The notes under the pieces: generated by a model
The model's database searches: none
What the model saw: only the letters and a program-made list of their open reading frames with translations
Told to the model about the DNA's origin: nothing
Source of the DNA: Xiphias gladius
Lineage: Eukaryota > Chordata > Actinopteri > Istiophoriformes > Xiphiidae
Length of the DNA stretch: 64,000 nt
Direction of reading: 5' to 3'
NCBI RefSeq assembly: GCF_016859285.1
Contig: NC_053414.1
Location: 3,596,517 to 3,660,516 of the forward strand
Part shown: piece by piece, positions 815-60,600 of the stretch
How positions within the stretch are numbered: position 1 is the stretch's first letter
How the letters are laid out: each line of letters starts with the position of its first letter
Translations under genes and position numbers: made by a program

Positions 815-1157
815 GAGTTTATCAGGCGAACCCAAAGAGGAGGTGCGGGACTCCAAGCCTCGTTCCCTGCGGTTCACCTGGAGCATGAAGACCACCTCCT
901 CCATGGAGCCAGGGGACATGATGAAGGAGATCCGGAGGGTTCTGGACGCCAACAACTGTGACTACGAGCAGCGCGAGCGCTACTTGCTGTTCTGCGTGCA
1001 CGGCGACGCCCGGCAGGAGAGTCTGGTCCAATGGGAAATGGAGGTGTGCAAACTGCCCCGCCTCTCGCTGAACGGCGTGCGCTTTAAGAGGATCTCTGGC
1101 ACGTCCATCGCCTTCAAAAACATCGCCTCCAAAGTGGCCAACGAGCTCAGGCTGTGA
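815..1157 (+). CDS. mark1: MARK-family Ser/Thr kinase, last coding exon (KA1 domain), probably MARK1; partial
   Basis: MARK (Par-1) kinases phosphorylate tau and other microtubule-associated proteins and act in cell polarity. Only the terminal exon is in the window: one base of a split codon at 815, then 113 codons and TGA at 1155-1157. The translation begins [17 protein letters not shown] and carries the whole kinase-associated KA1 domain, with the hallmark segments [36 protein letters not shown] and the C-terminal ANELRL. KA1 binds anionic phospholipid and autoinhibits the kinase. Paralogue choice: the tract [14 protein letters not shown] resembles my memory of MARK1 (DARQDSL) rather than MARK2 (DGHAENL) or MARK3 (TPGHEDF), and the neighbours traf5 and rcor3 also point to the MARK1 block. 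The gene converges on the creatine kinase-like gene at 8219-16619. Family is certain; MARK1 is likely. Confidence 0.9.
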
Positions 1158-8218: not shown

Positions 8219-8657
8219 CTACTTCTGTGTAGGAACGAGCTCATCGACGTCTCTGCCGACCTCCAGCCTCTTCTCCATTGCGATGAGCAGCTTGACCCCG
8301 TCCACAACCAGCTGGGTCAGTCCCACCTCGCTCAGGCCGATGGTCGCCACGTTGCTCACAAGATACAGCGCAGGGGATTCTGGGAAATAAAAGGTAAATT
8401 TGAACCGGGGACTCTCGTGCTGACTTCTGTTGAACTACTGGTGAACTCTGACTTTTAGAGAAAAGAGTTGAAGGTTAAAAAGCATTAAGGTTTGTCAGAT
8501 GTTTTTTTATGCTGAAGGAGTAGCAGGAAGGTCATAGATCTGATCATAAGAAAAGGAAAGAGGGTCAGACGTCCTTCAGAGAAATCAAATCAAATCCCTC
8601 AACGGCACAATTTTGGAACATGCTAATCCTGTCTCTGTATTTGACGCACTTTTATTA

Positions 8658-8700
<43 letters not shown>

Positions 8701-11700
8701 TTAATAAAATGTCCAAAGTTACTGAAGAACACAAACAAGATGAAAAATGCTCTCAGATAGTGAAGTAAAAAATACAGGCATAAAAAGTAGGCTCGGCACA
8801 ATTACGGGCACCTTTTTGATGAATTCAAATTAGTTCCTAAACCAAAATAAAAGACAAATGAGACTCATCGGTGCTTAATTGTCAGTGTTCATATGACCTG
8901 AATTAACCAATGAATGATGGTTTTACTGCATTAAAAAGGGGCAGATTGCTTCCTGTTTCTTTGACACAATGGAGAAAAAAAGGGAGCATCAGAGACGCTT
9001 TTATCAGAACACGAAACGATCCCAGAGGCCACAAGGCGACCGCCAAAGATCCTGAAATCCCTGTTTCAACGGTTGGTCGTGTTTTCAGGAAGTTTCACAT
9101 TCATTAAAACTGTCAAGACGCTTCCAGGACGTGGGGCCGAGAAGAAACTCAACGACAGAAGTCTGGGAATGTTGTGGAAAAAACACTAAGCAAGACATCT
9201 AAAGAGCTTCAGGCCGACCTGGATCAATCTGGAGCGGTGGTTTCAGTCCGTACCAGATGCCGCGCACTAAACCAAGTAGGGCTCCATGGGCCACGGTCAA
9301 GGAGGACACCGATATTGAAAGAAAGGCAAAAAAAGACAAAACTAATTTTTGCAAAAACCTTCATAGATAAGCCGCAGTCTTTCTGGGATAAGGAAAATAA
9401 CATCCTACCTACAGTAAAACATGGAGGAGCTTCTATCAGGCTGTAGAGCTGCTTTGCTGTCTCTGGTTCTGGAGGCACTGAATGTATCAAAGGGAAGACG
9501 AACCAAGGCGCTTTAGAGCCAAATGTGTCACCCAGTGTCAGAAAAGTGGGTTTGAGGTGAAGGTCGTGGGTCTTTCAGCAGGACATCGACCCAAAGCAAA
9601 CATCCAGTAGCACAGAAGAATGGTTGAAAAGGAAAAGATGGACTGTTTTAAACTGGCCAGTGATGGGTCCTGACCTAAATCCCATTGAAAACCTTTGGAG
9701 AGAGCTGAAGTCTGCCGTTGCAAAAAGGACTCCTGCAAACTATAAAGAGCTTTAACGCATAGTAATGGAAGAAGCGGCAGAAACTACCAGCAGACAGGTG
9801 CCAGAAGCTTCTCGTTGGCTACAGGAAGCGTTTAGAGGCCGTCAATGTTGCCAAAGGTTCTGCAACCAGATATTAGTGAAGGTGCCAATAATTGTGTCTG
9901 GGGTAGATTTTGTGTTTGTGTTATTTCACTATTATGCTAGTTTTGTTTTTTCATTTTCTTTTGTTCAGTAACTTTGGACATTTTATTAAAATATTTTTGA
10001 TTACATAAAAGATGTTGATTTGCATCTACTGTGTTTCTGATTATATTCTAAATTCTGAACTTAGAATTCAAGGGTGCCAATAATTTCAACCAGGACTCTA
10101 TATATGTCGATAGATAGATACATATGACAAAGACTAGCATCTACAAATCTTTTTTGAGAGGCTAAAATCTGCAAATATTTGGCTTTTTCTCACTATTTTG
10201 CTTGAAAAATGGCTGAAAAAAATATAAAAATAGTTGCCGATTATTTTTCTGTCGATTGACTGATTGACTGTTTCAACTGTAACGCAAAGTGATATTTTAC
10301 ATGTAAGGTCACTGAGGCAGTTAGCGTTTTAAAAAAATGCTGAACTCTACTAATGGGACATAAAGTATCCTGCCCTCAAAATAGTTTAAAATCTGACTCA
10401 TGATATCTGACATATCCTATGGCAATAAATTTATAGATGGATCATTTTTAATTCCAAAGGTTCCACCACAGTTCAACACTGCCTAAAATTTGTTTGTGGT
10501 AAATGTGCCTGCCTGTCAGATATATTTGATTTGTGCAAGTCGCTGCATTTTGTTCGATCTTGATCTCGAGTAGAGTTGTCAAGTGTGAGGAGCTGTTTCA
10601 GGTGCCCCTGGTTCAGAAAGCAGCAGGAAGGTCACAGTCCGCTGATGTTCTCGATTAATCAGTTCATTATTTGGTCAATAACGTGACGGAAGACAGCGAA
10701 AAATGCCCATCGCAACATCCTGGAGCACAAGTTGACGTCATTAAATGTCTTGTTTTTTTCCATCTGACACTCCGAAACCCAAAGAGAGTTAATTTTCTAG
10801 AATGCAAGAGCAAGAAGAGCAGCACATTCCCCCATTTGAGCAGCGGGATCCATTAAATGTTTGGCGCTCTTGCTTATGAAATTCAGTAATTAATCATCAA
10901 AATCAGCAATAATTACATTATCTGCAAGAGGCCTGTGTTTCTGTTAGGCAACACTGAGGTTACTGTGGAAAGAAAAAACTGGAATGAGAGTACAGACAGG
11001 AGAAAAACACCCCAAACCAGCAACCCCTCCTAACTCTATCAATACATATTCCACTAATGTAACATGATATTGGAAACGCAGCCTTAACGGCTGTTGCTGT
11101 TCTCACATCCAGTGAGAGACTCTGACGGTGCAGAAGGTGGCTCCGCTGTCAAAGAGGTTCATGGTTCATTAAGTGGCAGAGAGTCGTCGCAGCACATTCA
11201 GAATGTAGTCAGGAGCAATTGCGAGCTGGAACAGCAGATTTCAGGTTGTCCCTCAGGACACACGGAAGGTTTGTGGAGGTGGTAAATGCTCCCAGCCGCC
11301 TAGCTCCCATGCCCCCAACGGTCTGATACAAAAACAATTACTGGTGCATTTGGAGCAACAGGATACACCAGGATTCAGTGCCAGTTCAGGGCTGCTATAG
11401 GATATTATATTTTACTTTTCTAATAACACGGATCCTGACACATCGCATCTCATTAACTGTGTACTGTGGTCACAAGATGGCAGTTAAAAAAATCTCCTAA
11501 CTCGTTAAATACTTGGTCTTTGAGGTGTGATGTAGTACTACTGCTCATTTTCCCAAAATATTAATAAGCTTAATATTATATTTCATACTCATTTCCTCTG
11601 ATATCAGTGGATGCGCTGCATGAAACCCTGGATTTACATCTAGACAGTAACTTACTGGCCATGAATCTTCAACGTCTAACCCAGAACTGAACGTGGAGCA

Positions 11701-14700
11701 CATGCTGGCCTGAGGTTCGCAGTCACGTGGATCCCATGTACCTGTTTTGTCCATGCGGATCCTCAGTCTCCTCAGGATGTCCTTGAGTCGTTTGTGCGTG
11801 GGAAGGTGTTGCAGTTTCAGGTGGACGCTGATCCTCAGACCCGTCCCCACGTCAGCCGGAGAGCTCGTCACCCATCCCAGCTGCTGCTTCCAGATGAACG
11901 GGTGTCTGAGTCCTCTGTAGTACGCCTCCAGCTGGAAACGCAGAAGAACAAAGCAAATAATCAGAGGACCCTGAAGATCAAAGGTCGTAAAATCCTGGCT
12001 TCGCTGCAGGAATGTTTTCGAGGGCTCAGAAACTCCTTTTCCCGCTGAGGGAACCTTCATGTTTTTTGGGAGGGCAGATATCCTACACCAAAAACAGTCC
12101 CTGTACATGAGGTACTGCACTTTACTGACTTTACTGGTTAAACAGTCACAAACAAGTTCCATCTTTAAATACCAGGAAAACATACCTTAACAGATACAAG
12201 GTTTCTATGCGGATGCGATAACGGAGATAAAGATACTCCGGTAGAAAATATACTGGCTGATGGTAATTTTTTAAACAGAAACACGTGGGACATTTTACAG
12301 TTGAAAAATCGACTTGTCGGTGCTCTCTGGTGGGCAAACTACGTAATGGAGACACTGTTTCTAAATGACCTCAGACCCGGTTTGGTTTCTGCAGTGACAT
12401 TTCTTGTAATTGGCCGATATATAGACTTACACCTATATACCGTATAAGCAGTAAGCCGATATCGACCCATATATCAGCCGGATCAGTTTGTTGGTCCAGC
12501 ACTACAGGGAACTGTCAGGTAGAACTATCAGGAGTGTAGCTGGTAGTAAATGTTCAATTTCATCATTATAAAACACTGTGTATAAACTAGGGTTGGATGA
12601 TATGACCTGAGATTTATATCCAAAGAAATTGTCACATTTACTGTGATAATGATCAATTCAACACCGTATGTTTTTGTTAATACATTTGTGTGCAAAATTT
12701 TCTTACATGTTCCAATCTGACCAGTTTAAGACTCCGTGCCTTTGGACTGGTCTGTGTGCCGATTGTTTGATTGAACTGGTCAGATGTTGTTGGTTGTTGC
12801 TGACATTTGTGGATTAGTTATAACTAACCCATTCACTGAGCACTTTATTAGGCACACCAGACTAATACTGAGTAGTTCTTCTCTTTGCTCTCTAATCAGC
12901 CTCAGGTCTTCGTGGCCTGGATTCTACAGGATGTCGGAAAACTTTCCTCTGAGATTCTGGTCCACGTTGACACGATTGCATCACATCTTTTCTGCAGATT
13001 TGTCAGCTGCACATTCATGCTGCCAGTCTCCCGTTCTACCACATCCCAAAGGTTTTTCTACTGGATCCAGGTGTGGTGACTGGGGAGGCCACTGAAGTTC
13101 ACTGAACTCACTGTCATGTTCATGAAACCAGTTTGAGACGACTTTTTCTTTGTGACATGGAGCATTAACCTGCTGGAAGGAGCCATTAGAAGATGGTAAA
13201 TTTTGACAATAAAGGGAAGCACATGGTCAACAACAATACTCAGACAGGCTGTGGAATTTAGACCATGACCGACTGGTGTTTAAGGGGCCAAAGTGGAGCC
13301 AGGAAAACCACCACCAGCGGCCCATCTGGCATCAACAATTATGCCATGGTCAAAGTCACTGAAATTCCATTTCTTCCCCATTCTGATATTTGATGTGAAC
13401 ATTAACTGAAGCTTCTGAGACCTGAATCTTCAAGGTTTTATGCACCGCACTGCTGCCACAGGATTGGCTGATTGGATAATTGCATGAATAAGCAGATGTA
13501 CATTTGTTCCTAATAAAGTGCTTGGTGAGTTTATAGAGTAATTGTTCATGGTTAAAAACCAACAGGTGTAGATAAAATGCATGCAGATTGACTAAATTTA
13601 CGGATATTTACGGACCTTTTGCAGGTTGATGCAGATGCATTTAAATGCCTCAGCGATGTTGGCGTCGTCTCGTGTGGACACCAGTCTGAGGTGGTCTTCC
13701 ATGTTGACCCAGACCACTAGGCTGCCATCTTTACTCAACCTGCAAAAAAAGGAATATATGGGACAATACATGTGTCAATTGGCATCTTGCACAAGGGTTT
13801 GAATCCCCGGTGTCCCAGGCTCCGATTACTGGTCTGAATGTATGGTGGTTTTGCATTTCTTTAATGTGGGAGACGCTTTCATCCAAAGCCCCTTCATTTT
13901 TTCCCCCACATACACACACATCTGGAGCAATTAGCGGTTCCTTGTCCTTTCTTAAGAACGGTTTGACATGTGGACAGATGGAGCTGGGGAATCAAACCAC
14001 CAGCCTTAAAATTAATGGCTGGCCTGCTCCACCACCTGAGCTAAAGCCTTTCTCTATCCATACAACAAACTAGACTGCTGCAGACTGACCAGACGGCCCT
14101 GGCGTCAGGCCAGTCGCGGGCCACACCGATACGGAGCTGGGAGGCAGACGGAGGGCTCAGGTTCAGCTCCCCCTGCTGCTCCTGGTTCAGCTCCTCCAGT
14201 AGCAGGAGTCCACCCGGCAGCCCCTCCTCCAGCCGCTGCAGAGCTGAAAGAGAGGAAACTCTGGTCAGCTGGTTTACAGCAACTGGTTAAGGGCTTACTT
14301 TGAGGCCATTTTGATTTTTGTTTTGATCTGGATTCCACTTGTGTTTTCCTTTTATCAACAAAGTTGAAATCGTTTACCAGCTGTTTTGTTGTTTAAATGA
14401 TAATGTAGTTGGAACCACATGACTGAAGGGTCGCAACCACATGTTCAGGCCATAAACAAGTCAAAAATGAGCACTCCTCATTCATCACCCTAGTGGGAAA
14501 AAAAAGATTACGTGGCATCAAGTCAGGCCTCAATGTCTGCTTACAAATATGTTTCATCACTCCTGTTTTTCTTGCCAAAAATGCAAAAATGACACTTTAT
14601 CATTTTGTTAATGTCGGAGTACAAATGCTTGGACTGCACAAAAGCTGGACCGGTCTGCATGAAGCCGGTCTCAGACCACCTCACTCACATCTTCTCAGGT

Positions 14701-16619
14701 CTTCACAGAGGTGCACCTAAGCATCTAAATGACCTTCATGTGGACAAACAAATCCCTTTCCAGATTTCTTGACTTCAACGACTCCACCCATTTTGCCGTG
14801 TTCGTATGTGTAATTAAGAGAGATCAGAAATCAGAGCTCAACCCTGTCGTAACCTGCTGGGATAGAATCGGGTTGGTGAGAATCCAACCTACTCCGTGCA
14901 AAGTAGATGAGACACAGATGTGCAGTACCTTTCTTGGCCAGTGTGAGGAGCTGTCTGCGCTCTCCTCGGCTGCAGTGTGTCGGGAAGCAGAAGTCTTCGA
15001 CGCCTCGAACGACACTCACCTCACAGCGCACAGCGTATGACCTGTCCAAGTCATCACCCCCCTGCGCACACACATCAAGGTTCGTTAGATTGGTCAAATG
15101 TCCGCAAACACTTTGCAGTAGCATGTGTTTGAAGTGTTGCTAGCATTGAACACATCGTCACTTTCTACCACTTCTTTTCAGGCTTCTATGTAAATCTAAC
15201 AAGTTTGAAAGCCTGCTTAAACACAGGGGATGGTAATAAACGCCATTCGATTTAGACTTCTTTAGGATAAGGTTCTAAGTTAACTTTCTCAGGTCTTAGT
15301 AGATAATAGAAAGCATCTTAGTCACGTAACTGCAGGCTGCCATCTATGTTCACTTAAGTCAGATTGAGGAATATGTGACGGGATATTTTTCTAAACTGGT
15401 GTCTCCATTCATTCAATGTTTCCTGCCTTGTCTGGTTGATCCTAGTATGATTAAAATGTAGGTTTGTTTAATTGTAGTTATGCAATGATATGCACGGTGC
15501 GGTGCCTACAAACATATCTTGTTAATGCTAGAATATCACCGGATAAATCTCAAAGAGAACACATCATATTTGAACTTTGGTGTCAAAACTAATGATACAC
15601 TGAGATGGTTGCTAACATCCCTCTTCGGGAAATCCCATCTGTGCTACACAACGTCTTGTGCAATGCCACACTTGTACGTTTGATGTGAAACTCCAGTCAG
15701 AGCTTTCTGGGGTTTGTGGCTGGATCCTGTTGCAAACCAATAAAGCCAATCAGAGAAACAATTGCAAGGTGTTATGATCCCAGAGATGATCAACGAGGAT
15801 ATGCTACTTGACACCCGCAGACACCCAGTGGTCTGACCGGCTACCTTCAGGTTATCGTAGTTGAAGTCGCTCTCTGGCGTCTGGATGGTGATCTTGTGTT
15901 CGTGATACGCCTCGATGACTCGGTCGAAGAAGTCACAGAACAGGATGTAGGACTGGGCGTCGCCCGCAACGCATCCCACAGTTACGGGACCCGACCACTC
16001 ACCTTCATACACAAACATTATAGATTGACAGACAAATTTACAGACTAACACCGACCATCCTTCCAAATCCTCGTAAATGTAAGGAAAATATATTGACTTT
16101 GTATTTTTAGACAGTTTTTTCCCCATTTACTCAGTTTTCTTTCAAACGGCCATCTAGTGGCCACAAGAGGAGCTGCAGTTTAACACACAAACCCCACAAG
16201 AAAAACACATAACAGGAATACAGCAGTAACACGGAATGACAGCAGGGTTTTATAATACAGAGAATAATCCTCAACCTCAGCTAAAGTTATTAACGTTTAC
16301 ATCAGTTATGCTTGTAAACATAACATTAAAATGGGACTATATTTTGAATTATGATCAACTGAGAAACAAGATCCAGATCAAGAGAGCAAATTTTCAAAAT
16401 CTTCAAATATATATTTGAAAACATCATCACAGTGACATCACCTGGTTCCTCCAGGCCCGGGCGTATGACATCATCAAAGATGACTCCGCTGTGGGTGCAG
16501 CGGTCGAACTGTCGGCGGTACATGGCCGGTGTGAGGATCCGTCCCATCCAGGTCGAGTTCCTGCAAAGGTCAGGAAACTCCTCCTCAGGGGAACCTCTCC
16601 TCAGGTGGAACTGGGACAT
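8219..16619 (-). CDS. divergent cytosolic creatine kinase-like protein, predicted catalytically dead
   Basis: Creatine kinases (CK) transfer phosphate between ATP and creatine. Coding exons on the minus strand: 16442-16619, 15845-16002, 14929-15061, 14090-14243, 13616-13739, 11742-11931 and 8219-8379 (stop at 8219-8221). Phases join cleanly to 365 aa, against about 381 for CKB/CKM. Exons of 133, 124 and 190 bp equal those I remember for CK genes. Conserved pieces: [61 protein letters not shown] and a C-terminal VPTQK like CKM's IPAQK. Against CKM numbering: Cys283 is Ser, Ser285 Ala, Asn286 Asp, Arg130 Glu, Arg132 Ser, Glu231 Met, Arg341 Thr, and the Arg320 loop is shortened by six residues and lacks the arginine. 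Glu232, Arg236 and Arg292 remain. The start is the first in-frame ATG after an acceptor at about 16640. An upstream coding exon (ATG near 18002) is possible but speculative. Expression and substrate are unknown. Confidence 0.88.
8657..8700. repeat. (TA)n microsatellite flanked by inverted GTGTGT/ACACAC
   Basis: Reads atatgtgtgt, then a long (TA) run, then acacacatat. The whole is one near-perfect palindrome inside CK-like intron 6, just left of the Tc1 relic. Confidence 0.85.
8790..10105 (+). mobile_element. Tc1/mariner transposon remnant with broken transposase
   Basis: Plus-strand reading gives a Tc1-like transposase in pieces. An N-terminal helix-turn-helix stretch (8910-9107) includes [18 protein letters not shown]. 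The middle (9174-9446) includes [13 protein letters not shown]. The C-terminal catalytic end (about 9560-9880) includes [10 protein letters not shown] and [14 protein letters not shown]. Several in-frame stops (for example at about 9105, 9444 and 9755) separate them, so it is inactive. Termini are near 8790 (ctcggcacaattacgggcacc) and 10100 (gggtgccaataatttcaacc), imperfectly inverted. It sits in the large intron before the last CK-like exon. Confidence 0.85.
10150..10290. repeat. fragment of MITE-like family seen at 4057-4442
   Basis: Shares gccgattatttttctgtcgattgactg-type AT-rich words and ends near tttcaactgtaacg. Partial copy. Confidence 0.35.
12834..13530. mobile_element. non-autonomous element with ~22-bp terminal inverted repeats
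   Basis: The left end is gagcactttattaggcaca and the right end ttcctaataaagtgcttgg, whose reverse complement is ccaagcactttattaggaa. The interior contains cggcccatctggcatcaac and gattggctgattgg, words I recognise from a repeat common in fish and frog genomes. No intact ORF. Located in CK-like intron 5. A fragment with ttattaggtacacctggc lies at about 45765-45800. Confidence 0.65.
13840..14050. repeat. teleost interspersed repeat (gacgctttcatccaaag type)
   Basis: Contains gagacgctttcatccaaagc, ctggagcaattagcggttcc, a ccttaaaattaatggctgg-like block and gctccaccacctgagctaa. This order of words is typical of a very abundant fish repeat. It lies 40 bp downstream of the CK-like exon at 14090-14243 (on the minus strand). 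A related copy is at 31290-31500. Confidence 0.6.
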
Positions 16620-33820: not shown

Positions 33821-33887
<67 letters not shown>

Positions 33888-35193
33888 TGTGTGTGTGTCT
33901 CCAGGTTGTCAGGCTGTCAGGTCACAGAGGGAGGCTGCACGTCTCTGGCCGCCGCTCTGAGATCCAACCCCTCCCACCTGAGAGAGCTGGACCTGAGCTA
34001 CAATCATCCAGGAGACGGAGGAGTGAAGCTGCTGTCTGCTGGGCTGGAGGATCCACATTGGAGGCTGGACACTCTCAGGTATGAAGAGCCCACATGCTAT
34101 TTCTTTTCTTCACAATGACGAGCTGAGGACTGTTGGTCCACAGTCGTTACCAGCACCACTGTTGTTTTCCTCACAGGCAATGAGGCTGTGTCTATTGCCA
34201 AAGGTGCTTTGTGAGTTTATCGTGTACTTAATTGATGTGATTTTGTAGAGGTTTTATCAGTGTCAATGTGTCAACCTATAGAGAGTGACCTAAATTACCA
34301 ATGAGACAAACATTTATAATTTAGAAGCATTTTCTTATGTCAGTCGATCACTTGTGATTTCAGAAAATGCTATAAAAGTAGTGCCAACCAAAATGTAGGT
34401 ATATCTCCAGTTAAATGTAGAAATTAATGTTTTCACATGTTTACTATGCATCTTTTTTAAGACTGGTTGGCTGTAACCTGACGGAGAGAAGCTGTGAAGC
34501 TCTGGCCTCAGTTCTCAGCTCTACGTCCTCTAGTCTGAGAGAGCTGGACCTGAGTCACAACGACCTGCAGGATTCTGGAGTGAAGCTGCTTTCTGCCGGA
34601 CTGGAGAGTCCTCACTGTAAACTGGAAACTCTCAGGTCAGGAGACGACTATTAGTTCGGTGGATGGAACATTTAAATGCTGCTCTACAGACGTATGAATG
34701 TCGGAGAAGATTTTTAAAAAGTCTGTAGGACTTCATCCTTTAGATTACTCCTAGATGTGTGTTGCCACCCTTCTGGAATACAAGTTTTAGTCGATGAGAA
34801 CGAATTTACGCAAGGGAGATTCATTATTCTCTTTCATTCTGCCTTCATCGTTAAGTATGGAAGTACCGGCACATTAGATTTCAGCCCAGCTGCATACCTT
34901 TACTTAGAGTATAACTCATTACTGCCACTGCGTATCCTATGAGGACTCCTGGCTTATTGTTCCAGTTCAAGCACCGGTCGTTGAGTTCTTGAATGCTGGA
35001 TATAATTTTTATGTTTCTCCAGCAAATGTAACACAAAGCCAAAAACAAGATCATTACATCAATTAATGATAATTATACTTTCTGTTGGCATTTGACAGTT
35101 TTATAATAAATCATTAAATCATTTCACAAAACGCTTGTTAACAAAAGCGGCAAAATTACTCTTATTTGATACCCCAAACCAAACCTTGCTTAG

Positions 35194-35234
<41 letters not shown>

Positions 35235-42378: not shown

Positions 42379-45300
42379 TTACAGGTTCTCTAAACCTGCC
42401 ATGTCCACCTTCACTTTGACGAACAGCGTGTCGTCTTTGACATACGCAGCATTCTGGGGAGTCTCTAGCTTGTCGAGAGGAACGAAGCATGAAAATCCAG
42501 AAGCGACATTGCTCACCGAATCGGCGGCGGGTTGTTGGAAGCTTTTGGATGTTGGGTCGGGTCTAAAGTTGAGACTGCGGTGGTTGCCGGCACCGCTTTG
42601 ATCCAGAATAGACAGAGACACGGTCTGTCTGAAAGGCCACGGCAGCAGAGCGTCGAAGTCTCCCGGCATCAGGACCACATAAAGGGACAGGTGAGTCCCT
42701 CTTCCCTCGCCGTCCCCGTTCAGATAGGCTTTGATGGCCATCTTGTAGCCGCAGCGTCCAGTGTGGAACGGCCTGCTGCTCAGGCACAGCGGCTGACCTT
42801 TGGCCTCGGCGTCCCTCCTTTTCCTGAAGTCCTGGATCTTCCAGATCAGTTTGCCGTCATAGGACGTGGCCTCGAGCTCCTGCAGGTGCTGCATGTTGCG
42901 ACTGAGCTGAGCGGCGTGGAGATCCAGGAGGCCGGATTGATGCTTCAGATTCTCCTCCAAAGTTCCTGGAGGAAGGAAATACCAACAGCATTTACCGAAA
43001 TGTTGTACCAGCCTTCTTAGTAGGTGTGTTTAAAAGGAGTCAACCCGGCGCCCGTCAGCTGAACCTCCTGCTGGAAGCTGGTGAGTCGTCCTGTTTTCAG
43101 TCCCTTTTGAACTGCTGATTTCAGATTAGGGTCAACTGTTCTCAGTCTTTACCGGTCTTCGCTGCAAAATTACCAAAAACTGAGAAAGCCGTTGTGCTCC
43201 GTAAGTCTCCTGGTGGCAGGTGTTTCTGCGCCGTGGCCAACAGCTAGCCTGGTCATCAGACTGAAACGCCGCCGCTCGGTTTCATTTCACTCATTTAAAC
43301 ACTGAGCATTTTGACTCTTTCCATAAACGTCCTGTTTCACAAACATGAACGTGCAAGTCACCTGGGTCTGAACCGACAGGTGAAGTCAGCAAAGTTACAT
43401 ATTTCATTTTTGAAGACGGCTGCAATGTCACAATTTGTAAACTGTGGGATCCAGGAACTGGTCCCAGTGGGAGAATCTTAGTAGTTAAAGTGGGACATTT
43501 TTGACTTTAGGAGTTACCTAAGCGCACCCGAACCTGATTAGTTTCAGGTTGGATCTTCAAGGATCTTCTTCGTGTCTAGACCAGAGAGGCAGGTCACTGC
43601 TACAGTTTTTCAGTTGTAAAAAAAAACAACATCTTTCTTGCTGATTTAATTTGGGCATCGCTGCGCTGTTCAATAAGTTTCACATATTGGTCTCATTATC
43701 AGTTTCAGATTGGAAAAATGATTCAGCTGGACTGTAAACGGCACTTTCTTGCAACGGGAAACACCAGTTTAGGGGTGCGTGTGGACATAAGATCAACCTG
43801 CTCCTTAAAAAAAAGAAGCAGGTATTTTCAGTAGAGACAGAAAAACTGTTTCAAAGCAGGTTTATAAAGGTAGGTTTTCAGGTTTTGTTACCCAGGTGTT
43901 CTCTGAGGGCCTCGACCGCCGACACCTCCTGCATCACGGCATCCAGAGACTTTCTAAGCTGCTCCAGCTCCTCCAGACCGGGGAGTCCCCGGGACACCTG
44001 CTGGACCTCCAGCTGGACGGTGGACAGGACGTCCTCCTGCCTGTTCAGAGTCCTCTGATCACACACACAGACAGAGGTAACGTGGTTAAATACTGCTGCT
44101 CTGACTCGGAGAACCACAGGGATCGCAGGCAAATCCAGATTGTGTGATTTAAGAAGGAAAACACCGTCGCGATTTTTTTAAAACACGCGGTTACGTGTGA
44201 TTATGTGTTTTTGAGGAACAAGTGTGAAGCTGATACTTTGTGATGTTTGGGATCTAAGAAGGTATGAAGAACCACTTAAGAAGGTGTGATCATCGTTGGC
44301 ACGTTTGTAGGCATGAAACTATTTTCTCTGCAGGTTTTGATGTGATAGTAAGAGTTTGGATAAGCTTTTGAAAGCATGGTTTGAGTATTCAAACCATGAA
44401 CGCAGCCGTACAAGACTACAGAAATACCCCATTACAAGTAAATGTCCTGCATTCAAAATTTCACTTTAGTAAAAGTAAAGAAGGACTTGCGACAAAACGT
44501 ACCTAAAGTCCAAAAAGTAAAAGTACTCGTTACGCAGAACGGCATCTTTCTTTGTTATTTCTATTATCAATGTTGATTTTACTTTAATGTTGTAGCTGGT
44601 CGATGCGGAGCTCATTTTTTAACTACTTTATATACTGTTGCGTAGTTTAATCTCTAACAGCGCATCATTCTATGAACTGACAATATGTTCTGTAAGTAAA
44701 ATCTTGATCTGAGGAGTAATTAGTAACTACAGCTGTAGTGTAATAAAGTTTCCCTCTGAGATGTGGTGAGGTAAAAGTATAAAGTAAAGCATAAAACGGA
44801 AACAAAGTATCCCAGAACTGTACATACGTACAGTAGCTGAGCAAACGTACTTAGTTACTTTCTACCAGTGAAAAAATTCTAGCGGAGCCCAAATGTTTCT
44901 CTAAAGTCGGAGTCTGCAAACCGCTCAGGTGTTTGACGCCCTCGCGGACTTCAGTTTCGTCCTTCTGCTCAGAGCGTTGATCTGCGTTTCTTCATCGTCG
45001 TAGTTGATGCGACTTAATTTAACGTCACAATATCGTACTAACGCGAACTGACGTCGACGTAACACTAACAGCTTTCCTTCTTGTCAACAAATCCCAGACT
45101 GTGCAGACTGAAACCACCACTGAACGTCTACTAACAAGTTTTCTGTGTGTGTATCAAAGCCTGATGTATCTTATTCCTCTGTGTCATACAAAAATTATTC
45201 AAAACAGAATGAATGAGGTTTTTTTTTTTGGTAAACGAAGCTGTATACTGTATTTGTGAGGTGTTTTAAAGACTTCCATCTTCAGTAGGAACCAATGGAA

Positions 45301-48300
45301 AGAGCTGAGAGTCGGACTAAATCCATTTTGCAGCTAGGATTTGGATTCATTAGCACGGATAAATTTCAAGCTCACAACTCCTACATGATCCGGGATGATG
45401 GAGACCCGAGGGCTCAGAGGAAATGGGGGTCGAGACGGGGATGATCAGACGCGACCAGAGGAGGGAGAGGGAGAGTTAAACTGTGCGCTAACCTGAGCTG
45501 TAGCGACGCTGCGTTCGTGGCAGCTGCTCTGTTGCAGCAGCGGCTGGATTTTCTTCTGCAGGCCGGCGAGCAGTAGGCCGTCGGCCTGGGCCTCCTGCTG
45601 CCTCAGCAGCACCTCCTCCTGGAGAACCCCCACCTGACGGAGGAGACAGCAGTCTCAGGTGAACGCTCTCTAACGCTTTGCAGTCAGAAATCTCTAGGAA
45701 CATTGGCAAGAATTAGATCTGTGCGTCATTCAGGTTTCAAGCTATATCATACACACTCAGTTATCAGTTTATTAGGTACACCTGGCTAAAACGAATGCAG
45801 TGGGATTCAGCAGCCCTGTGATAAATCCTTGAAACTGTAACTTGGTGTTTATTCAACTGATCATTCTGGATGCAGTTTGTGCTGCTTTTGAACTGTATCG
45901 TATTACATTATTTCATCCCATTCATATCAATGTGGGTAGACCGAAGTAAAGCACTGATAAGCCTCGGGGCTTTTTTAGGTTGGTCCTCGGTTCACCGTCA
46001 GTAGCAACAGAACGAGTCACCTAACTAACTAATAAATATGCTGCTTTGTGATATGGCAGGCTGCTTGTTCGGGTCGTCTTCAGCGCCTCTGTACTATGGG
46101 GCGGAGGTATGATCGTATTATCTTGTTAAAAGGTGTGACCGGCTGTTCCCACATCTATTGTTTCCCAACAATCTCTTAAAAAAAAGGGAGAGGAAAGACA
46201 AGCGTGGCATACCACGGACGCCCATAACTTCTGCAGGATATCACGGGACTGGGAATAAGGTGGATAGCTGAGGTATGTTTAACAGAGCTTGGTCTTCTTT
46301 TACTGATTTTAAAAGGAGAATTTGGGCCAACGACCGACGCAGACGTCTGCCGAATCAAACCGTCGCTGCGTTACATTAAATTTACTGGGAGCCGTCAGCG
46401 AAGCGAAAAGGGGTCTTTTGTCCGACTTTTGCTTTCAGTTTTTCTTTGGCAGACCTGTTGTTCCAGGTTGGTGTTGCTCCTCAGGACCAGCAGCATGTGA
46501 TGGTTGACACCGGCGTCTTCGTGCAGTTTAACTTTCCCTCTTTTATCCTGCAGGAGACAACACTTCAGAGATCAGCGTCTTCGAAAATGTTAGCGTGAGC
46601 ACCGGGGTGTTTTTTGTTGCTTCGTCGGATGAACACACCTGGACAGAGCAGCCGAACTTCTTATAAGAGCAGAAAACGTGAACCTCAGGACACGACTCTC
46701 TGTGCTCCGTCAGCTGAAAGAAAAAAAAACAAAACACGCACAACATGGACAAACTCATTCTTGACTCCGATTGGTCAATTATGACTTTCTCAAGTCTGTG
46801 GAATCACAGATGTTCACAGTAACTGTCATCCTGTCGTCCCACCAACACTAGTCCTGCTGCTGATCTCGGCAGTCATAAATTAAAAGGAGCCTGTGGAGTT
46901 TTAGTCCTCTAGAGGCGCCATGGAGCTGTTTTCTATTAGTGGCTTCCTTGTTTTGTCGCCCCCCCACACACACGTGAACGCGGGTGATGCAATGCATCCC
47001 TGCACTACCTACACTCCTTCGGTGATTTCACACATGTGGCGGTAAAGCGTCAAGACATGCAGCAATGTACCTGCCGGTGTTGGAGTTAAAGAAGCTTACT
47101 TTAAAACCTGAGTCATAACTCAGTCAAATCTGATCACACAGATTTGAAACGCATAATTTTGGATTCAGTGTGACTTGCTTTTTCCGAGGACGTCATTATC
47201 TCTGACGTACATCCCAAGTAAACGTGCAAAAATCTGCTTGGAGAAAAAGACGCTCCTTATGACTGCAGAACCTGCCTGAGATTCATCATTTTTAAGTTTT
47301 CTTATTGAAGTAATCCGCACGAAAAGCAAACACACGTGCCGACACTCAGCCAATCAGCCGTCGGATGATCGCTGCATCTGCAGGTTTATGGTGCGAATCA
47401 GAGGACGAGCTCACCTTGTGTCTGGGAACCTTCTGCGAGCAGCTGCTGGGACAGTCCACCTCCACGTCTGGACACGTGCTCTGCACGTGATCCTAACAAC
47501 ACAGAGACACCACCAACACATCAGCGGGACTCAACATTTCAGCTCGATGAAAAGCTGTGACTGCTCACGGTGGTCACGTGTCCTGTCTCTGGGGTGGAAA
47601 CTCTCAGTTAAAGTCGTGTCTAAGAACGGCATCTCTGCAGATTCCCTTTAACCCCCCCCGACTCATTTCTGGTGCATGTTTGCAGGGTAGAAATCCTCTC
47701 CTGAAATCGAGTCCTTGAGCATGTCCTGAGGCAGCTGGACCAGGAACAGGACGCGGCCGGAGCATGGCGGCTTTACCTGGATCAGGCTGAGTCGGTGCGG
47801 TTGCCCGCAGTGTGGGCAGGGCTCCGTCCGGTGAAGACAGGTGTTGGTCAGGTGTTCCTGCAGGCATCTCCTCTGTAGCACCGCCCTGCAGCCTGGATTG
47901 GTGCACTGCAGCTGCTCATGCTGACAGGACCTCAGGTGCTCCTGCAGAAGACGAAAAGATACACGATTCTGATGATAAGATTTTGTCGGCTCCGAGCTCC
48001 ACAAAACTGTGCTTTTATACGTGTTTATCAGGCGGATTGCTGAGTTTACATCTATTATGCAAATAACAGGAACATTTACTGAGGTCACGCTATTTACGAC
48101 TGTCAGTTTTGCCTCCGAGAAGCAGTCGCAAACACCGTAATCCCTTCTGCCGCAAGCGCAGATGGGATTTACAAGAGCCTGTAACGGCAAGAGAAACCTG
48201 CGTTAAACACAGGCTTGTAAATAACTGAAACCTGACTGTCAGAAACGAAAATGAAGAAATGAGGCTGGTATTAATGAACACAATATCTAAACACCCTGAC

Positions 48301-51156
48301 ACAAACGAATATATGGCTGTTGCGGTTGGCGTTCATCAAACTTGATGTTGAACTCGACCGTCACAGAGTCACTACAGGCTGCAACTAGACTTTTCTTTGT
48401 TTTCTTGTTTGGCTGCTTCTCCGCCTCCACCTGCTCCGCCTCTCTCACTCCGCCAGCGAACGGGAGCTGACGCTGGCAGAGTTTGTCTGGAGGTTCGGTA
48501 CCAGCTGGAGTCCGGGAGCTGACCGCGTAACCACCCGCGAAAAACCGCAGCACGCGTCGGCAACAACAGCATTTTCTTAGTAAATGCGGCCCAGAGTGTA
48601 TTATCGCCCCCCCCCCCCGGTCTCTGCTGCCCCGAGCTCGGCGTATCCACGTGAGGAGTGACAAGGTCAACTCTCTGCATAGCCACACACACTCTGCTGG
48701 TTTATGGAGTCTACCTGCAGTTGGTGTAACGTGATGACAGAGGTACATGCCGGGGAGTTGGTGCAGAACACCTCTAAACTGGAGATCTCTCGTTTGCAGC
48801 AGTTGTCCTGGAAAACCTGCAGGGACAAAACTCTTGATTAGCGTCCTTTTATCCTTCAACCAGTCCCAGACTGACCCGACACTGAACGTCCCCTACCAAC
48901 CAGAACGGTGTGTGTATCCACAGCCTGACACGTCTTCTTCCTCTGAGCCGTAGGACACTATTAAAAACACCTGACAACCTCACCTTCCTGCTGCCACAAA
49001 TGCTCACCACAGCACCAAATGTGGATTAATCCGCCGCTGAAAATAGTCCTTAATAAATGCACCGTTTCCTCCTCAAATTACTTACTTTAAAAAAGAAAAA
49101 GTATAAATGTATTTGTGAGCTTTTTTTTTTTTACAGAAACATCGGTGGTTTGCTTCTGCACATGAGATTTGCTGACAGTAAGAAATTAACACGGGAGTCC
49201 GAGGAGGAGCTGCGTGTATGTGCGGCTATATGTTTGGTTTATACTGGCCTCAGCTGGTGTGATCACGGCTCCGTCCACTGGACAAACTGGGCTGGACGGT
49301 GAAGAACTCTCCCTGAAACACAAAGCAGACTGGAGTTCTTACCGAGACGGAGCTTCACGGACTGGAGCTATAAGCTACGTGCGGCCCGACTAACAGCCCA
49401 CCCATACTGGTCCCGTACAGGCTGCTGCTGTAAACTACAGCCTACTGTAATCTCATTATGCAGTCAGATAGAGCGGGATGTAGCCTTAAATAAAGGGAAT
49501 GATCATGACACAATGGTAGGTCCAGACTTGGTGACCAAAAACCAGTTTGGTCTCTGCTGGTGAGGAGGGTTACGGATAATCCAGGGAACTCAGACGCCAG
49601 TAGAATCCGCTCAAGCATCGTTTACTTGAAAAAAAGCTCGGTCACGGGACAGGCCAGATTAATGAGGACGTCCCGTCGCGCGTGCAAACACTGGCGCGCT
49701 GCACGATCGAGCTCGACCACATCAACCAACCAGTTTCACCGTTACAATGAGATGGAAGTAAAAAAGCACAGTCAGGACCTGAGAGGAGGAATACAAGACT
49801 TTAAATGGGGTCATCTACAAGCTCGTAGTCCACGGTACATAAAAGACACAAAACATTATAGTATTTTGATGGATTTTTTCAAATCCTGATATTAACGGAT
49901 ACACTGAATATTCATCTTGACAGCGACAGATTCTTACAGTGTCAGTCCCATGAAGAAGAACTGATTGTTAATTGTTACGTGAGGAGGTTCTGACATGACT
50001 TTGTAGGGTTTGGACATGAGTAATATTCAGGCCTGAATGCACCGCGTCATAAACTTAAACTTCCTCGCGACCTCTCAGTCCTAAAACCAGCATCCAGCTG
50101 CTGCCAACACCTGGACCGGTGTTGAGCGCTGGACTGTGGGGAACTGCGGGAAGCATTTAGCCCCGAACATCGCTGTCTATCAGGGGTGGGTCAGATGTTC
50201 TGTGTGTTTTTCTGAGATGGGACACGCCCGTCTACTACCGTCGCCTCGTGAACACACACTTGAGTGCTCAAGACCACGACTGTGGGTACTGGGACAGACC
50301 CGTTCACTCTGCAGCGCTTGGTCTGAAACCAGCCCACATAGTAAAGTGGACTTTCAGTGTGAGTGTGTTTTAAGGTTGACTGTGTCAGTGTGAGTGTGTT
50401 TTAACGTGGACTGTGTCAGTGTGAGTGTGTTTTAAGGCGGACTGTGTTCAGTGTGTGTGTGTTTTAAGGTTGACTGTGTCTGTGTGAGTGTGTTTTAAGG
50501 TGGACTGTGTCAGTGTGAGTGTGTTTTAACGTGGACTGTGTCAGTGTGAGTGTGTTTTAAGGCGGACTGTGTCAGTGTGAGTGTGTTTTAAGGTTGACTG
50601 TGTCAGTGTGAGTGTGTTTTAACGTGGACTGTGTCAGTGTGAGTGTGTTTTAACGTGGACTGTGTCAGTGTGAGTGTGTTTTAACGTGGACTGTGTCAGT
50701 GTGAGTGTGTTTTAACGTGGACTGTGTCAGTGTGAGTGTGTTTTAACGTGGACTGTGTCAGTGTGAGTGTGTTTTAACGTGGACTGTGTCAGTGTGAGTG
50801 TGTTTTAACGTGGACTGTGTCTGTGTGAGTGTGTTTTAACGTGGACTGTGTCTGTGTGAGTGTGTTTTAAGGCGGACTGGCTCCTACAGCAGTCCTTGGA
50901 GGCAGTGGAAGCAGTAGATGTGTCCACAGGAGTTCTGCTGGGGGTTGAGCACGACTCCACTGCAGATGGGACAAACAAACTCCTCCCTCAGCTTCAACAC
51001 AAACTTCAGGGAGTGCTGGATGGAGGCCAGCTCCGACTCCCAGGAGCCCACGGGGCCGGTCGACCTCATCCTGGACTCCTCTGACCCCAGCTTCGACTCC
51101 TCCGACTGCAAACTGGACTCCGGGGATCCTCCCAGCTTTGTATCTGCGGTGGCCAT
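42379..51156 (-). CDS. traf5: TNF receptor-associated factor 5 (TRAF5), complete coding sequence
   Basis: Cytoplasmic adaptor linking TNF-receptor family members to NF-kB and JNK signalling. Minus-strand exons: 50888-51156, 49249-49312, 48715-48816, 47777-47941, 47415-47492, 46639-46713, 46455-46547, 45493-45633, 43892-44054, 42379-42965. Phases join to 578 aa (human TRAF5 is 557). RING ligands are C62, C65, C77, H79, C82, C85, C100 and D103, split over exons 1-2 (CPIC…SCGH…CPVD). Exons 3-6 carry TRAF-type zinc fingers (DNCCKRE; CxxxxLxCxxxxC spacing). Exons 7-9 are coiled-coil-like. The MATH/TRAF-C domain is about 419-575 (GKLIWKI, YLNGDGEGRG, DALLPWPFRQ, VKDDTLF). AQLSRN before the MATH domain, RCGYKM and LDQSG favour TRAF5 over TRAF3, as does adjacency to rcor3. 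The start is the only ATG with enough upstream coding. The second exon's donor looks non-canonical (gag|gccagt). Confidence 0.93.
45065..45370 (+). repeat. dispersed repeat family A in traf5 intron 8
   Basis: Shares ctgaacgtc…ctaacaag, gtgtgtatcaaagcctg and cttcagtaggaaccaatgg with copies at 48860-49175 and 55440-55960. Confidence 0.5.
48860..49175 (+). repeat. dispersed repeat family A in traf5 intron 2
   Basis: Contains gtgtgtatccacagcctgac, aaatgtggattaatccgccg and gcttctgcacatgagatttg. It is the most complete copy in the window and lies between traf5 exons 2 and 3. Confidence 0.55.
50353..50880. repeat. 31-bp minisatellite, 17 copies, abutting traf5 exon 1 donor
   Basis: The unit is cagtgtgagtgtgtttta + acgtggactgtgt. 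Seventeen units in 527 bp are counted by the gtgttttaa word. Units differ at one spot: acgtgg (A), aggttg (B), aggcgg (C), aggtgg (D). Read left to right the order is B A C B D A C B, then eight A, then C. The array ends about 8 bp before the splice donor of the RING exon, so it forms the very start of traf5 intron 1. Confidence 0.95.
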
Positions 51157-52439
51157 GAGTCTGCAGGAGGCCAGACCAAACAGATCATGCAGGTGGTTAT
51201 TACAAGTTATTTAATTCTTGTGATTTGATCCTTTTTGCTAAGTTGTAGCTGCAACAGTCGGATCGTCACAGACCGAGCAATAACGCTAATCTCAGCTGCT
51301 CTACAACACAGACTGTTAGAACATAACGTTTAAAAGCAACTACCAAATTATGATGGAACGCTTTAGTCACGTTCCTGCATATTCTCCCGTCCTCTTCAGG
51401 AATATGTGATGATACCTATTGTGACCTGTAATCAAACATAGGGCTTTTTAACGATGCACTCGCTTCCACAGGAAAAGGATCCGAGTGCTTCTTCCGCCAC
51501 TGGCAAAGCGATAACTTTGCCTGGGGTCCGTCCAGCTCCCGACAGAACCAGTTGATTGGAGGAGCTTGTCTTGATTATGGGGTGTTAGGTTTCCTCATTG
51601 GCCGACATGGGACTCGGTGAGTTTTATAAAACTTGAGAGGAGGTTGAGTCTGAGAGGCAGGACTCGGGGCCTAGAGTTTACTCCCTAATCCTGAGTCTAT
51701 GACCGGGGAGCACCGGTGATGTAAAAATGTCGGTCATGGTCATGGTTTACAAATTACAAAAGGCTGGACACAGTGTTTACACTAACATTAAATCATTTTC
51801 ATTTTAATTACCATTACACTTGAATTCAGGTTTCCTCACTAAAATCCCTGTGAACGGTGTCCTCCGAAAGTCCAGCCAGTCCGAGACCCAGATGACAGGG
51901 TGCAGGTCCCGACGCACATCTTGACCCACCCTGTCGCTCTATTACAGCTGACCCGCAGCAGTTTGAAGCAGCAAGCGCTTTGCGGACCTCGCCTGCCCCG
52001 CGCTGGGGCTTGTCAGGCTACATAGCCTCTTCTACCCAACCCTCTGATTGGCGGAAGTTGCACCTGCAGCCTGAGGCCTGCAGACGCTACTCAGGGCTGT
52101 AAGACAAATCCATGCCAACACTTCGCCTCAGGTAAAAGAAATTCATTTCATCTCTATGTTTTCAACGAATGAACGAATCATTGATAAAGACGGAACTTAA
52201 ACGTTCTTAGATTTACTCTATCGGGTCTCTATCAACGAAAAGCCGAACCCGGGCGAAGCGGAGATTGCCGTCGCTGGTTCCCAGAACGTAGCGAAATAAA
52301 ATCCCGACAACCGCCGGTTCCGTGCTGGAACGCGTCCAGCCTGCCGCCAAGAATCCGAAGGTTTTCAGCAGCACGCAACAGAACGTTTCCATGTTTCCAT
52401 CTTCCCAAAAAGATCATTAAGTACGATCCATTTTTTATC

Positions 52440-57679: not shown

Positions 57680-60600
57680 TTAATGGAGGGAGGAAGATGA
57701 GGCCGTCTCCGACTGGTGGATGGCCAGGCCCGAGGGCTGCTGGGTGGAGCTTGGACCTGACCCCCCGGGGTTGCCGCCGAGCGTCATGGGAACCGGAGGG
57801 CGGGGGTTGAGGCGGGGGGGCAGGGGGTTAGAGGGGCGGATGAGTGGCGGGGGCTGCTGCAGGGTGGGACGGGGCTGCAGGAAGCGAGCCTGCTGTTGGA
57901 GGGGCGGGGGCTGGCGGTGCAGGGAGGGCGTGGCCGGCAGGGAGGGCCGAAGGAGGGGAGGCGGCTGATGGAGGGAGGAGGAGGAGGTGCTGGACATCAC
58001 CGGAGTCTGAGCTGTAGAAGAAGAGGAGGCAGCAGGAGACGCACCTGAGGAGGTCACCTGACCCTGCAGAGAGGAGGGGGCGGGGCAAGAGTTATCTCAC
58101 TGCATGTCTGGATGGATATTTTATTTCCCTCATGGTGAAAAACATTAATATAAACCCATTTTTACTCTCAATTTGACCCTTAAAATGGTTCCCAGCCTGG
58201 AGGTCAGTCACAGGACAATTAACAAGACACGAAAGGAGAAAAAAACACTGCCACACAAATTAATCATTGAAATGTTTCTCACTCACTGACGCATGTCTGT
58301 TATTAAATACAGGATAGTTTTTTGTTCAGGCCCCTAAAATTTACTCAAAATGAAACATTCCAAGAAATTAGCATCAAATTTGCCTGATCTGCTCAAAACT
58401 CTCAGACTGTGACAAAGGCTTTCACTCTACAGTTGTCACAAGTCGATAAGGTTGAGAACCATGGGCCTTAAAGGGTCACACTACTAAATTTAAATGTTCA
58501 TACCTTTAAGTACAGAGCATTTCCAAAATATTGCCTTTACTCGTTCGAATGATTTCCACTCTCACAGAACAGTGTTGGCAGCTATTTTCAACGGAAAGTA
58601 GCTAAAGCCCGATTGAAAAGCCGCTAGATCACGCCGCACACTAATTTGCATTTTAGTGACATCACAACGTAACTACTGTATTTACATCATTTCCCAGGTG
58701 GGTCCGTTGAGACGGAGACCGAAAAAAAGCGCATTATTCGCGGCTGCAGTGCGTCAAAGGAATCACTGCACGGCCTTCCAAAAGGGAAAAATGTTGCAGA
58801 CAAGTGGATGGATTTTATTTTTATTTTACTTAAACACGGGACCTTTAAGTGAAACCAACGTCTGCTGTAAGAAAGGAAACCAGTCTAAAAAACTTAGGGA
58901 TGATTTGGAAAATGATCAGCAGTAAATGCTTGAAAACACGAACACAACACAGTATATAAAACAGATACAACATGAATATAAAGGGAAATGTCTCACCTCT
59001 TCGTCCTCTTCGTCGGTGCTCTTCCCTGACGGAGTGGTGGAGCTATTCTTTCCCTCCTCTCCGGAGGTGGCGCTGTCTCCGTTAGGAGCTCGTGTTCCCT
59101 GCTCGGCCTCCCACTCCTGCAGCACCTCCTCCAGGTTGAACCGCCGCCGGTAGTTCACAAAGAAGTTCTTCACCTGGCCCACCGTCTTGTTGCCTATGAC
59201 GTCTGCGATGGCCTGAAAGTCTTTTCCGTATTTCCTGACACCTGGAGAACATCGCAGGTGGTTTATAGAGATGCAACCAAATCTTAAACTGCCACTAAAA
59301 TGCACAGATTCTATCTGGTACAAAATTTGCTGACAGGGTGTTTCTGGGGAGAGGTTCAGGACTGAGGGGAAGTCGTCACGGGACTCTAAGCGGCCACATC
59401 TGGTGGTCATTAGAGCTTCGAGTACCAGCTGGTCTCTGCCTGGGTCTGTCTGCTGTTTGCTGCTGAGCAGGTAGCGGACGGTGGCTTTTTTACAGCTGTT
59501 TCTCTGAAAACAGCTGCCTGCCGTACGAGAGCGGTGAGTGCGAACCAGGACCGTAGAGCTGTGGTCCGGACAGATAAACGACGAGCTGAAACTCAGTGTA
59601 AAGCTCCGATTCGGCTGGTAATTCTCGTTAGGAGACTCCTTCCACATTGTCACGTAGTTTTTCGCACTGTCGTTTGATCTTGTTATTAGAAAAACATCAA
59701 CTACAGCTGCATTAAAGACCAACAGGCAGATATGAAAACAGTGTTCACCTACATGAAAAGCTCAGATGACCTTTATGATGTGCGTTGTTTGCTGGATTTC
59801 AGATCTTTGCCCCTTTCAAACTCTTTTACCCGCTGTTGTTAAGAAACAGTGCTGAAGCTCACCTTGAACAGCCAGGAGCTGCTCGTCTGTGGTCCAACGA
59901 GCGTTCACCTTCTGGTTACACTACAAGATTAAACATCAGAGTTACAGTGATCGACCAGTAGAAGCCGACAGTTCGTATCTAGAACTAAAGGGATTTTTAC
60001 CCCGAAGCAGAAAACTATCGCTGCACAAAAATGGTTTATACCGATGAACATTTCTGATGAATTTCATGTAGTTTCCTGACAAAATATTTGATTTGACAGC
60101 TGTGAGACGAGGAAATGGTGAGCGTCAGTGAGTTTGTACCTCAGGGAGCCTGAACTCTTCAATCCCAGGGTCCAACATGTGTTTCAGTCCACTGTTCATC
60201 TGTTTGGCGTTCTGGACCTGAAGAACGAGACAGAAACTGTTTTGTCTGTTTGCTGTTTCCAAGGGTCTACGGTGAACTTTCAGTGCACATACATCTGTTA
60301 ACAGACCTGTAACCATGTCCTGCACACACATTAAAGAACATCCACTGCTTTGACATGCAGCACTAAGAACAACAAAGAGAACTGACCTTAGAGGAAAAGT
60401 CGACCTTTAGAACCTTGGTGATCTTTGTTAGTATTTTTGATCGTTCTTGTCTGGTATGGTGACATTTTAGTCACTAGTTTTGTTAAATTGAAAAGTTTTG
60501 AATGCAGCAAATGAAGGTTGAACCAGGACGTTTTCTTTGTCCCTGATCTGAGTCCTTTATTCCTGAGCACCCGATATTCTGATATTTCTCACTAATACAT

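Follow-up and report, generated by a model that had tools for sequence, protein, structure and literature searches.

The question raised by this locus is whether a gene of the creatine kinase (CK) family whose active site has been taken apart, but whose reading frame has been kept, still encodes a protein that is in use, and in what role. To our knowledge, the members of the CK family are known only as enzymes. The gene in question, referred to below as the CK-like gene, is encoded in a stretch of 64,000 nucleotides of the Xiphias gladius genome (contig NC_053414.1), which is called the window here; all positions are those of the window.

The CK-like gene lies on the minus strand, with its ATG at 16619 and the end of its stop codon at 8219, and these are also the gene ends that a preliminary description of the locus had given. 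The coding sequence (1098 bp) is distributed over seven coding exons (Table 1) and encodes 365 residues with no internal stop, all six introns being of the GT-AG type with phases 1/0/1/2/0/1. Indeed, the GT-AG introns and the open frame bear out, at the level of the sequence, the seven phase-compatible exons without stops of the preliminary description, including the 133, 124 and 190 bp exons that it had singled out. The GC content at third codon positions (GC3) of the coding sequence is 0.75, against a GC content of 0.44 for the window. The coding exons of human CKM measure 193, 155, 133, 172, 124, 190 and 179 bp (sum 1146, i.e. 381 residues and the stop codon). Compared with these sizes, the exons of the CK-like gene differ by -15, +3, 0, -18, 0, 0 and -18 bp, all multiples of three, and the six intron phases are all those of human CKM. 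Exon 2 is preceded by an acceptor with a poor pyrimidine tract, and the start codon lies in a weak context (C at -3, T at +4). PolyA-like hexamers are present 290 and 808 nt 3' of the stop codon.

Table 1. Positions of the coding exons of the CK-like gene and of its neighbours in the window (residue numbers after human CKM).
Feature	Position	Strand	Description
Coding exon 1	16442..16619	-	178 bp; ATG, N-terminal domain; last codon equivalent to Gly65, phase 1
Coding exon 2	15845..16002	-	158 bp; acceptor weak; loop 60-70 rebuilt as EWSGPV (HPFIM in CKM), followed by an intact TVGCVAGD
Coding exon 3	14929..15061	-	133 bp; S128R, R130E, R132S; HCSRGERR block, R148 kept
Coding exon 4	14090..14243	-	154 bp; deletion of 187-192 including His191; ARDWPDAR block, R209 and D210 kept
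Coding exon 5	13616..13739	-	124 bp; NMEDHLR for NEEDHLR (E231M; E232 and R236 kept)
Coding exon 6	11742..11931	-	190 bp; CPSNLGTGLR segment altered (C283S; R292 kept)
Coding exon 7	8219..8379	-	161 bp including stop; loop 319-332 six residues shorter, D335L, R341T; C-terminus ...VPTQK
MARK1 C-terminal KA1 domain	855..1154	+	Synteny anchor in tail-to-tail orientation to the CK-like gene
TRAF5 exons	42382..51210	-	Synteny anchor; MATH exon 42382-43029 identified as TRAF5; position alone assigns the zf-TRAF (47666-48202) and RING-like (50887-51210) exons
RCOR3 exons	57683..62115	-	Synteny anchor; 61669-62115 REST_helical, RCOR3; 58919-59761 Myb/SANT; 57683-58096 proline-rich, presumed C-terminus

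Two introns of the CK-like gene also harbour repeat-like DNA. Intron 6 contains a Tc1/mariner-type element (8700-9990) with 36-nt terminal inverted repeats that are 92% complementary, and with broken transposase ORFs in which Tc3-type HTH and DDE domains score above the Pfam cut-offs. In intron 5, a noncoding stretch (12820-13540) resembles an interspersed fish repeat, which we take to be of the 'cactttattaggcacacc' type.

The best PDB match of the product is a cytosolic creatine kinase (E = 4.6e-92) and both Pfam domains score above their cut-offs (PF02807 at residues 20-90 with 79.8 bits, cut-off 25.7; PF00217 at residues 153-350 with 129.8 bits, cut-off 22.4), which excludes a chance resemblance. 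On these matches, the product belongs to the ATP:guanido phosphotransferase (phosphagen kinase) superfamily. It shares 41-43% identity with the six cytosolic CK rows of the alignment and 34-35% with the three mitochondrial rows. Among the PDB matches listed, ten cytosolic CK chains score 284-312 bits and six mitochondrial chains 214-216 bits, and the latter scores are equalled by two glycocyamine kinase chains (217-219) and by a two-domain arginine kinase (222). Furthermore, at the 33 columns fixed differently in the cytosolic and the mitochondrial CKs of these nine rows, the residue of the CK-like protein is of the cytosolic kind in 18 cases, of the mitochondrial kind in one and of neither in 14. 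The gene is read as a protein-coding one with a cytosolic-type creatine kinase fold. An origin from a mitochondrial CK was considered and is rejected because of these 18 discriminating residues against one.

Descent from CKM alone or from CKB alone is not favoured on either side: at the 21 columns fixed differently in the two, the CK-like protein has the CKM residue in four and the CKB residue in five, and AU tests reject neither a position with CKM (p = 0.0856) nor one with CKB (p = 0.418), nor one beside a CKM+CKB clade (p = 0.402), at the 0.05 level. In a tree of ten rows, the CK-like branch is 3.82 changes per column long and lies nearest to CKB and CKM, at a place without support; a branch of this length would also fit weak constraint. 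A scan of IMG/VR for relatives of the product yielded five stretches that matched a pattern, none of which was confirmed.

The KA1 domain ending at 1154 scores 204.6 bits to MARK1 (3ose) and 187.2 bits to MARK3 (1ul7), chains of MARK2 and MARK4 not being among the matches listed. The MATH exon scores 337 bits to 6ku5 and 197 bits to 4gjh, both of them TRAF5, and 184 bits to TRAF3 among the matches listed; of the other two exons, zf-TRAF scores above its Pfam cut-off, whereas the RING-like one falls just below. The REST_helical exon is nearest to RCOR3 (115.9 bits), with RCOR1 at 59.7 bits or less, only chains of these two proteins being among the matches listed. No Pfam match was obtained for the proline-rich stretch, which we assign to the C-terminus of RCOR3. 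As a side observation, the match of the MATH exon to 6ku5 is much stronger than that to 4gjh, and a fish source of 6ku5 is suspected. LRR and PRY-SPRY exons, which are typical of fish NLR-type immune receptors, are also present on the plus strand between the CK-like gene and TRAF5 (30783-38124); the LRR match at 30.8 kb does not reach its cut-off, and a duplication is suggested by the near-identical reading of the LRR exons at 33.7 and 35.1 kb.

In the human genome, MARK3 is the tail-to-tail neighbour of CKB on 14q32, a region that also contains TRAF3 and RCOR1, MARK4 is the tail-to-tail neighbour of CKM on 19q13, and MARK1, TRAF5 and RCOR3 are located on 1q32-41. By this arrangement, the three neighbours in the window (MARK1, TRAF5 and RCOR3) are paralogues of the neighbours of CKB and CKM. 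The simplest reading of a MARK1-TRAF5-RCOR3 block with a CK inside is that this CK belongs to the MARK1 copy of the block. The CK-like gene is thus most likely a third 2R ohnologue of the cytosolic CKs, which would stand beside MARK1 as CKB stands beside MARK3 and CKM beside MARK4. The equal distance of its product to CKM and CKB fits such a descent, of which it is no proof. The preliminary description had named mark1 but not this duplication context.

The residues of the active site were compared with human CKM (1i0e), whose numbering is used throughout. The arginines that bind phosphate are given as R130, R132, R236, R292 and R320, with two more cleft arginines at R96 and R135 (PMC12387690); R341 is added to these (PMC12467219), and two catalytic loops are placed at 60-70 and 323-332 (PMC3457962). 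In the CK-like protein, (i) only two of the five arginines of the phosphate clamp are kept, R130E and R132S being part of a stretch that is also changed by S128R, S129C, T133V and G134V, with R135 kept, (ii) a deletion of six residues (187-192) removes His191 and another deletion of six residues (319-324) removes R320, an alternative alignment on the intron placing an Asp there, so that neither alignment has an arginine at this site, (iii) the reactive Cys283 of CPSNLGT is absent, a Ser standing in its place in SPADVGT, (iv) R96Y, E231M, G294S, D335L and R341T are found in addition, and (v) the loop 60-70 reads EWSGPV for HPFIM, is one residue longer and includes H66E and I69P. The catalytic Glu232 is present (NMEDHLR), and R236, R292, H296 and Val72 are also kept. 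The losses named in the preliminary description (Cys283, Arg130 and Arg132, Arg341 and the six residues of the Arg320 loop) all recur in this alignment, as does its retention of Glu232, Arg236 and Arg292. Its claim of a CK-family active site taken apart within a kept frame in fact comes out stronger than it was made, since H191 and R320 are gone and both catalytic loops are changed: the 187-192 deletion with H191, the loss of R320 itself, S128R, S129C, E231M, G294S, D335L, R96Y and the rebuilt loop 60-70 were all beyond it.

It is extremely improbable that these losses come from an assembly or gene-model error, i.e. from mis-splicing or mis-assembly. The junction of exons 6 and 7 falls inside the shortened loop, as such an error would have it, but the deletion of 187-192 lies inside an exon, as do the changed residues at 128-134, 231 and 283-287, and the intron phases are those of CKM.

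The arginine kinase of Limulus (1m15), which is a working enzyme, provides a control at the same distance, its identity to human CKM being 43.5% and that of the CK-like protein 42.7%. Sixteen catalytic residues were counted: the arginines 96, 130, 132, 135, 236, 292, 320 and 341 and the residues at 128, 191, 231, 232, 283, 294, 296 and 335, the latter eight being our own choice. The CK-like protein keeps five of the 16 and the arginine kinase 14 (Fisher p = 0.003). R96Y and G294S are also found in the active arginine kinase and are therefore uninformative about activity; nine of the 14 catalytic residues common to CKM and the arginine kinase are nevertheless lost from the CK-like protein. The preliminary description had suggested an enzyme with another substrate as one possible reading. 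A neofunctionalised enzyme moving phosphate between other substrates could indeed draw on the catalytic E232 and on R236, R292 and H296, but the loss is on the nucleotide side (R130, R132, H191, R320 and D335), where the arginine kinase, equally distant from CKM, has lost none of the five residues and has the complete clamp. This reading looks very improbable, because the nucleotide site is broken and not the creatine site alone.

The dimer interface has the opposite pattern. E19, D55, D62, R148, K156, R209 and D210 (PMC4754747) and D54 (PMC3457962) are named as residues of the CK dimer interface. The D54-R148 contact is described as one inside a single monomer (PMC12387690). Six of these eight charged residues are kept in the CK-like protein (the exceptions being D62E and K156T) against two of eight in Limulus arginine kinase. 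Lys267, which PMC3457962 places at the interface but not among the key residues, was left out of the count; human CKM has Ala at this position and the CK-like protein has Leu. The opposite behaviour of the catalytic and interface sets in the two proteins gives an interaction p of about 0.001, with sets that are small and partly hand-picked; the interface and the catalytic site differ within the CK-like protein with p = 0.08. The dimer partner proposed in the preliminary description thus gains some support from the sequence through this reversal, six of eight against five of 16, but the interface difference from arginine kinase taken alone is not significant (p = 0.13).

Losses are not confined to the active site. 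Of 205 residues invariant in CKs, 100 are kept; the other 105 have been replaced or have disappeared, no exon being spared, and conserved glycines, prolines and the interface residue K156 are among those lost. No preferential loss of residues common to phosphagen kinases was found, 53 of the 111 invariant residues shared with Limulus arginine kinase and 47 of the 94 present only in CKs being kept (p = 0.78). These widespread losses count against the explanation preferred below and, together with the weak exon-2 acceptor and the weak start context, would fit a unitary pseudogene in the making, i.e. an old CK copy whose function was lost so recently that stops have not yet accumulated. A neutral simulation, started from the CK-like coding sequence with point substitutions only, without selection or indels (400 runs), leaves some room for a short, recent release of this kind, since 147 of 400 frames were still open at 95% identity. 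Only eight of 400, however, were open at 80% identity and none of 400 at 70% or less, which argues that most of the divergence arose under constraint on the frame and was not neutral. For the retention proposed in the preliminary description, this is support of an indirect kind. The in-frame changes of exon size relative to CKM, the GC3 of 0.75 and the mildness of the replacements also speak against a pseudogene. Indeed, the 93 changed CK-invariant columns have a mean BLOSUM62 score of -0.36 against -0.93 after shuffling, with 14 of 2000 shuffles as high. Among the substituted columns of the hydrophobic core (hydrophobic in nine CKs, with a novel residue here), 37 of 55 are still hydrophobic, which is significant against the 42% found overall (p = 0.0001) and only suggestive when compared with the 0.565 expected under a single-step neutral model (p = 0.068). 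A pseudogene in the making is accordingly regarded as improbable, with a small chance of being the right reading.

The explanation that we prefer is that the product is a protein of the cytosolic CK type that has been retained, is catalytically dead and dimerises, a proposal that we hold to be evenly poised between right and wrong. The loss of the active site would have turned the CK-like gene into one for a pseudoenzyme. Because His191, Asp335 and three of the five clamp arginines have been lost and neither the loop 60-70 nor the loop 323-332 is intact, one or the other having been rebuilt or cut, the product is predicted to be unable to hold ATP or to close over its substrates as CK does, and would be inactive. 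Since most of the interface residues examined are kept, it is proposed to fold and to dimerise. CKs form MB heterodimers (PMC3457962), and a dead chain with a kept interface would then be used most simply by pairing with a live chain. In the manner of the MB heterodimer, the CK-like chain could pair with active CKM or CKB and thereby titrate, place or stabilise active CK; from the sequence, this is offered tentatively, the balance being somewhat against it. Taken together with descent, it would mean that a third 2R cytosolic CK was kept by at least one lineage, probably fish, after the loss of its active site, as a dedicated non-catalytic subunit of heterodimers with CKM or CKB, a full proposal that we consider doubtful at present.

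A folded, non-catalytic CK-like protein could also have a job that does not rest on the dimer surface of CK, as a binding protein, a ligand sensor or a moonlighting scaffold. With Glu232, Arg236, Arg292, His296 and Val72 still present, a ligand pocket may have survived in part, and conserved residues are kept in all exons and not at the interface alone. Such a job leaves the six kept interface residues out of account, however, and the sequence names no partner or ligand. We regard it as unlikely, with an appreciable chance nonetheless.

Many protein folds are known to include pseudoenzymes that regulate an active relative. Among the best matches in the accessible literature, no CK or phosphagen-kinase pseudoenzyme regulating a live relative was found. 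Likewise, the titles and abstract openings of the best matches in the accessible literature on CK pseudoenzymes, on the evolution and ohnologues of CK, on fish CK paralogues and on CK-MARK or TRAF-RCOR synteny yielded no such gene. The gene may well be annotated already in gene databases. A zebrafish egg proteome study names Ckba, Ckbb, Ckma and Ckmb (PMC8082894). If the heterodimer proposal is true, CK activity would have a dedicated dead subunit, and a third member would be added to the 2R set of CKM and CKB.

In comparison with known systems, a possible likeness exists with pseudokinases of the protein-kinase fold (HER3, Fam20A), in which a dead subunit pairs with a live one; their fold is unrelated to that of the CK-like protein, and the likeness is one of analogy only. 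The mitochondrial CKs CKMT1 and CKMT2 (1qk1, 4z9m, 1crk) share its fold but differ in their lower identity (34-35%) and in the discriminating residues, only one of 33 being of their type, and the C-terminus of the CK-like protein is cytosolic-type. Limulus arginine kinase is alike in its distance from CKM (43%) and opposite in pattern, having kept 14 of 16 catalytic residues and two of eight CK interface residues. A further close system is that of the cytosolic CKM and CKB (e.g. PDB 1i0e, 8ci4, 1vrp, 3b6r, 1qh4). The CK-like protein differs from them by its identity of at most 43%, a phosphate clamp reduced to two of five arginines, the deletion of H191 and R320, the changes C283S, E231M and D335L, and the rebuilt loops 60-70 and 323-332, but is like them in its full-length fold with both Pfam domains, in 18 of 33 cytosolic-type residues, in six of eight dimer-interface residues, in its intron phases, which are those of human CKM, and in a MARK neighbour on the opposite strand, as in human.
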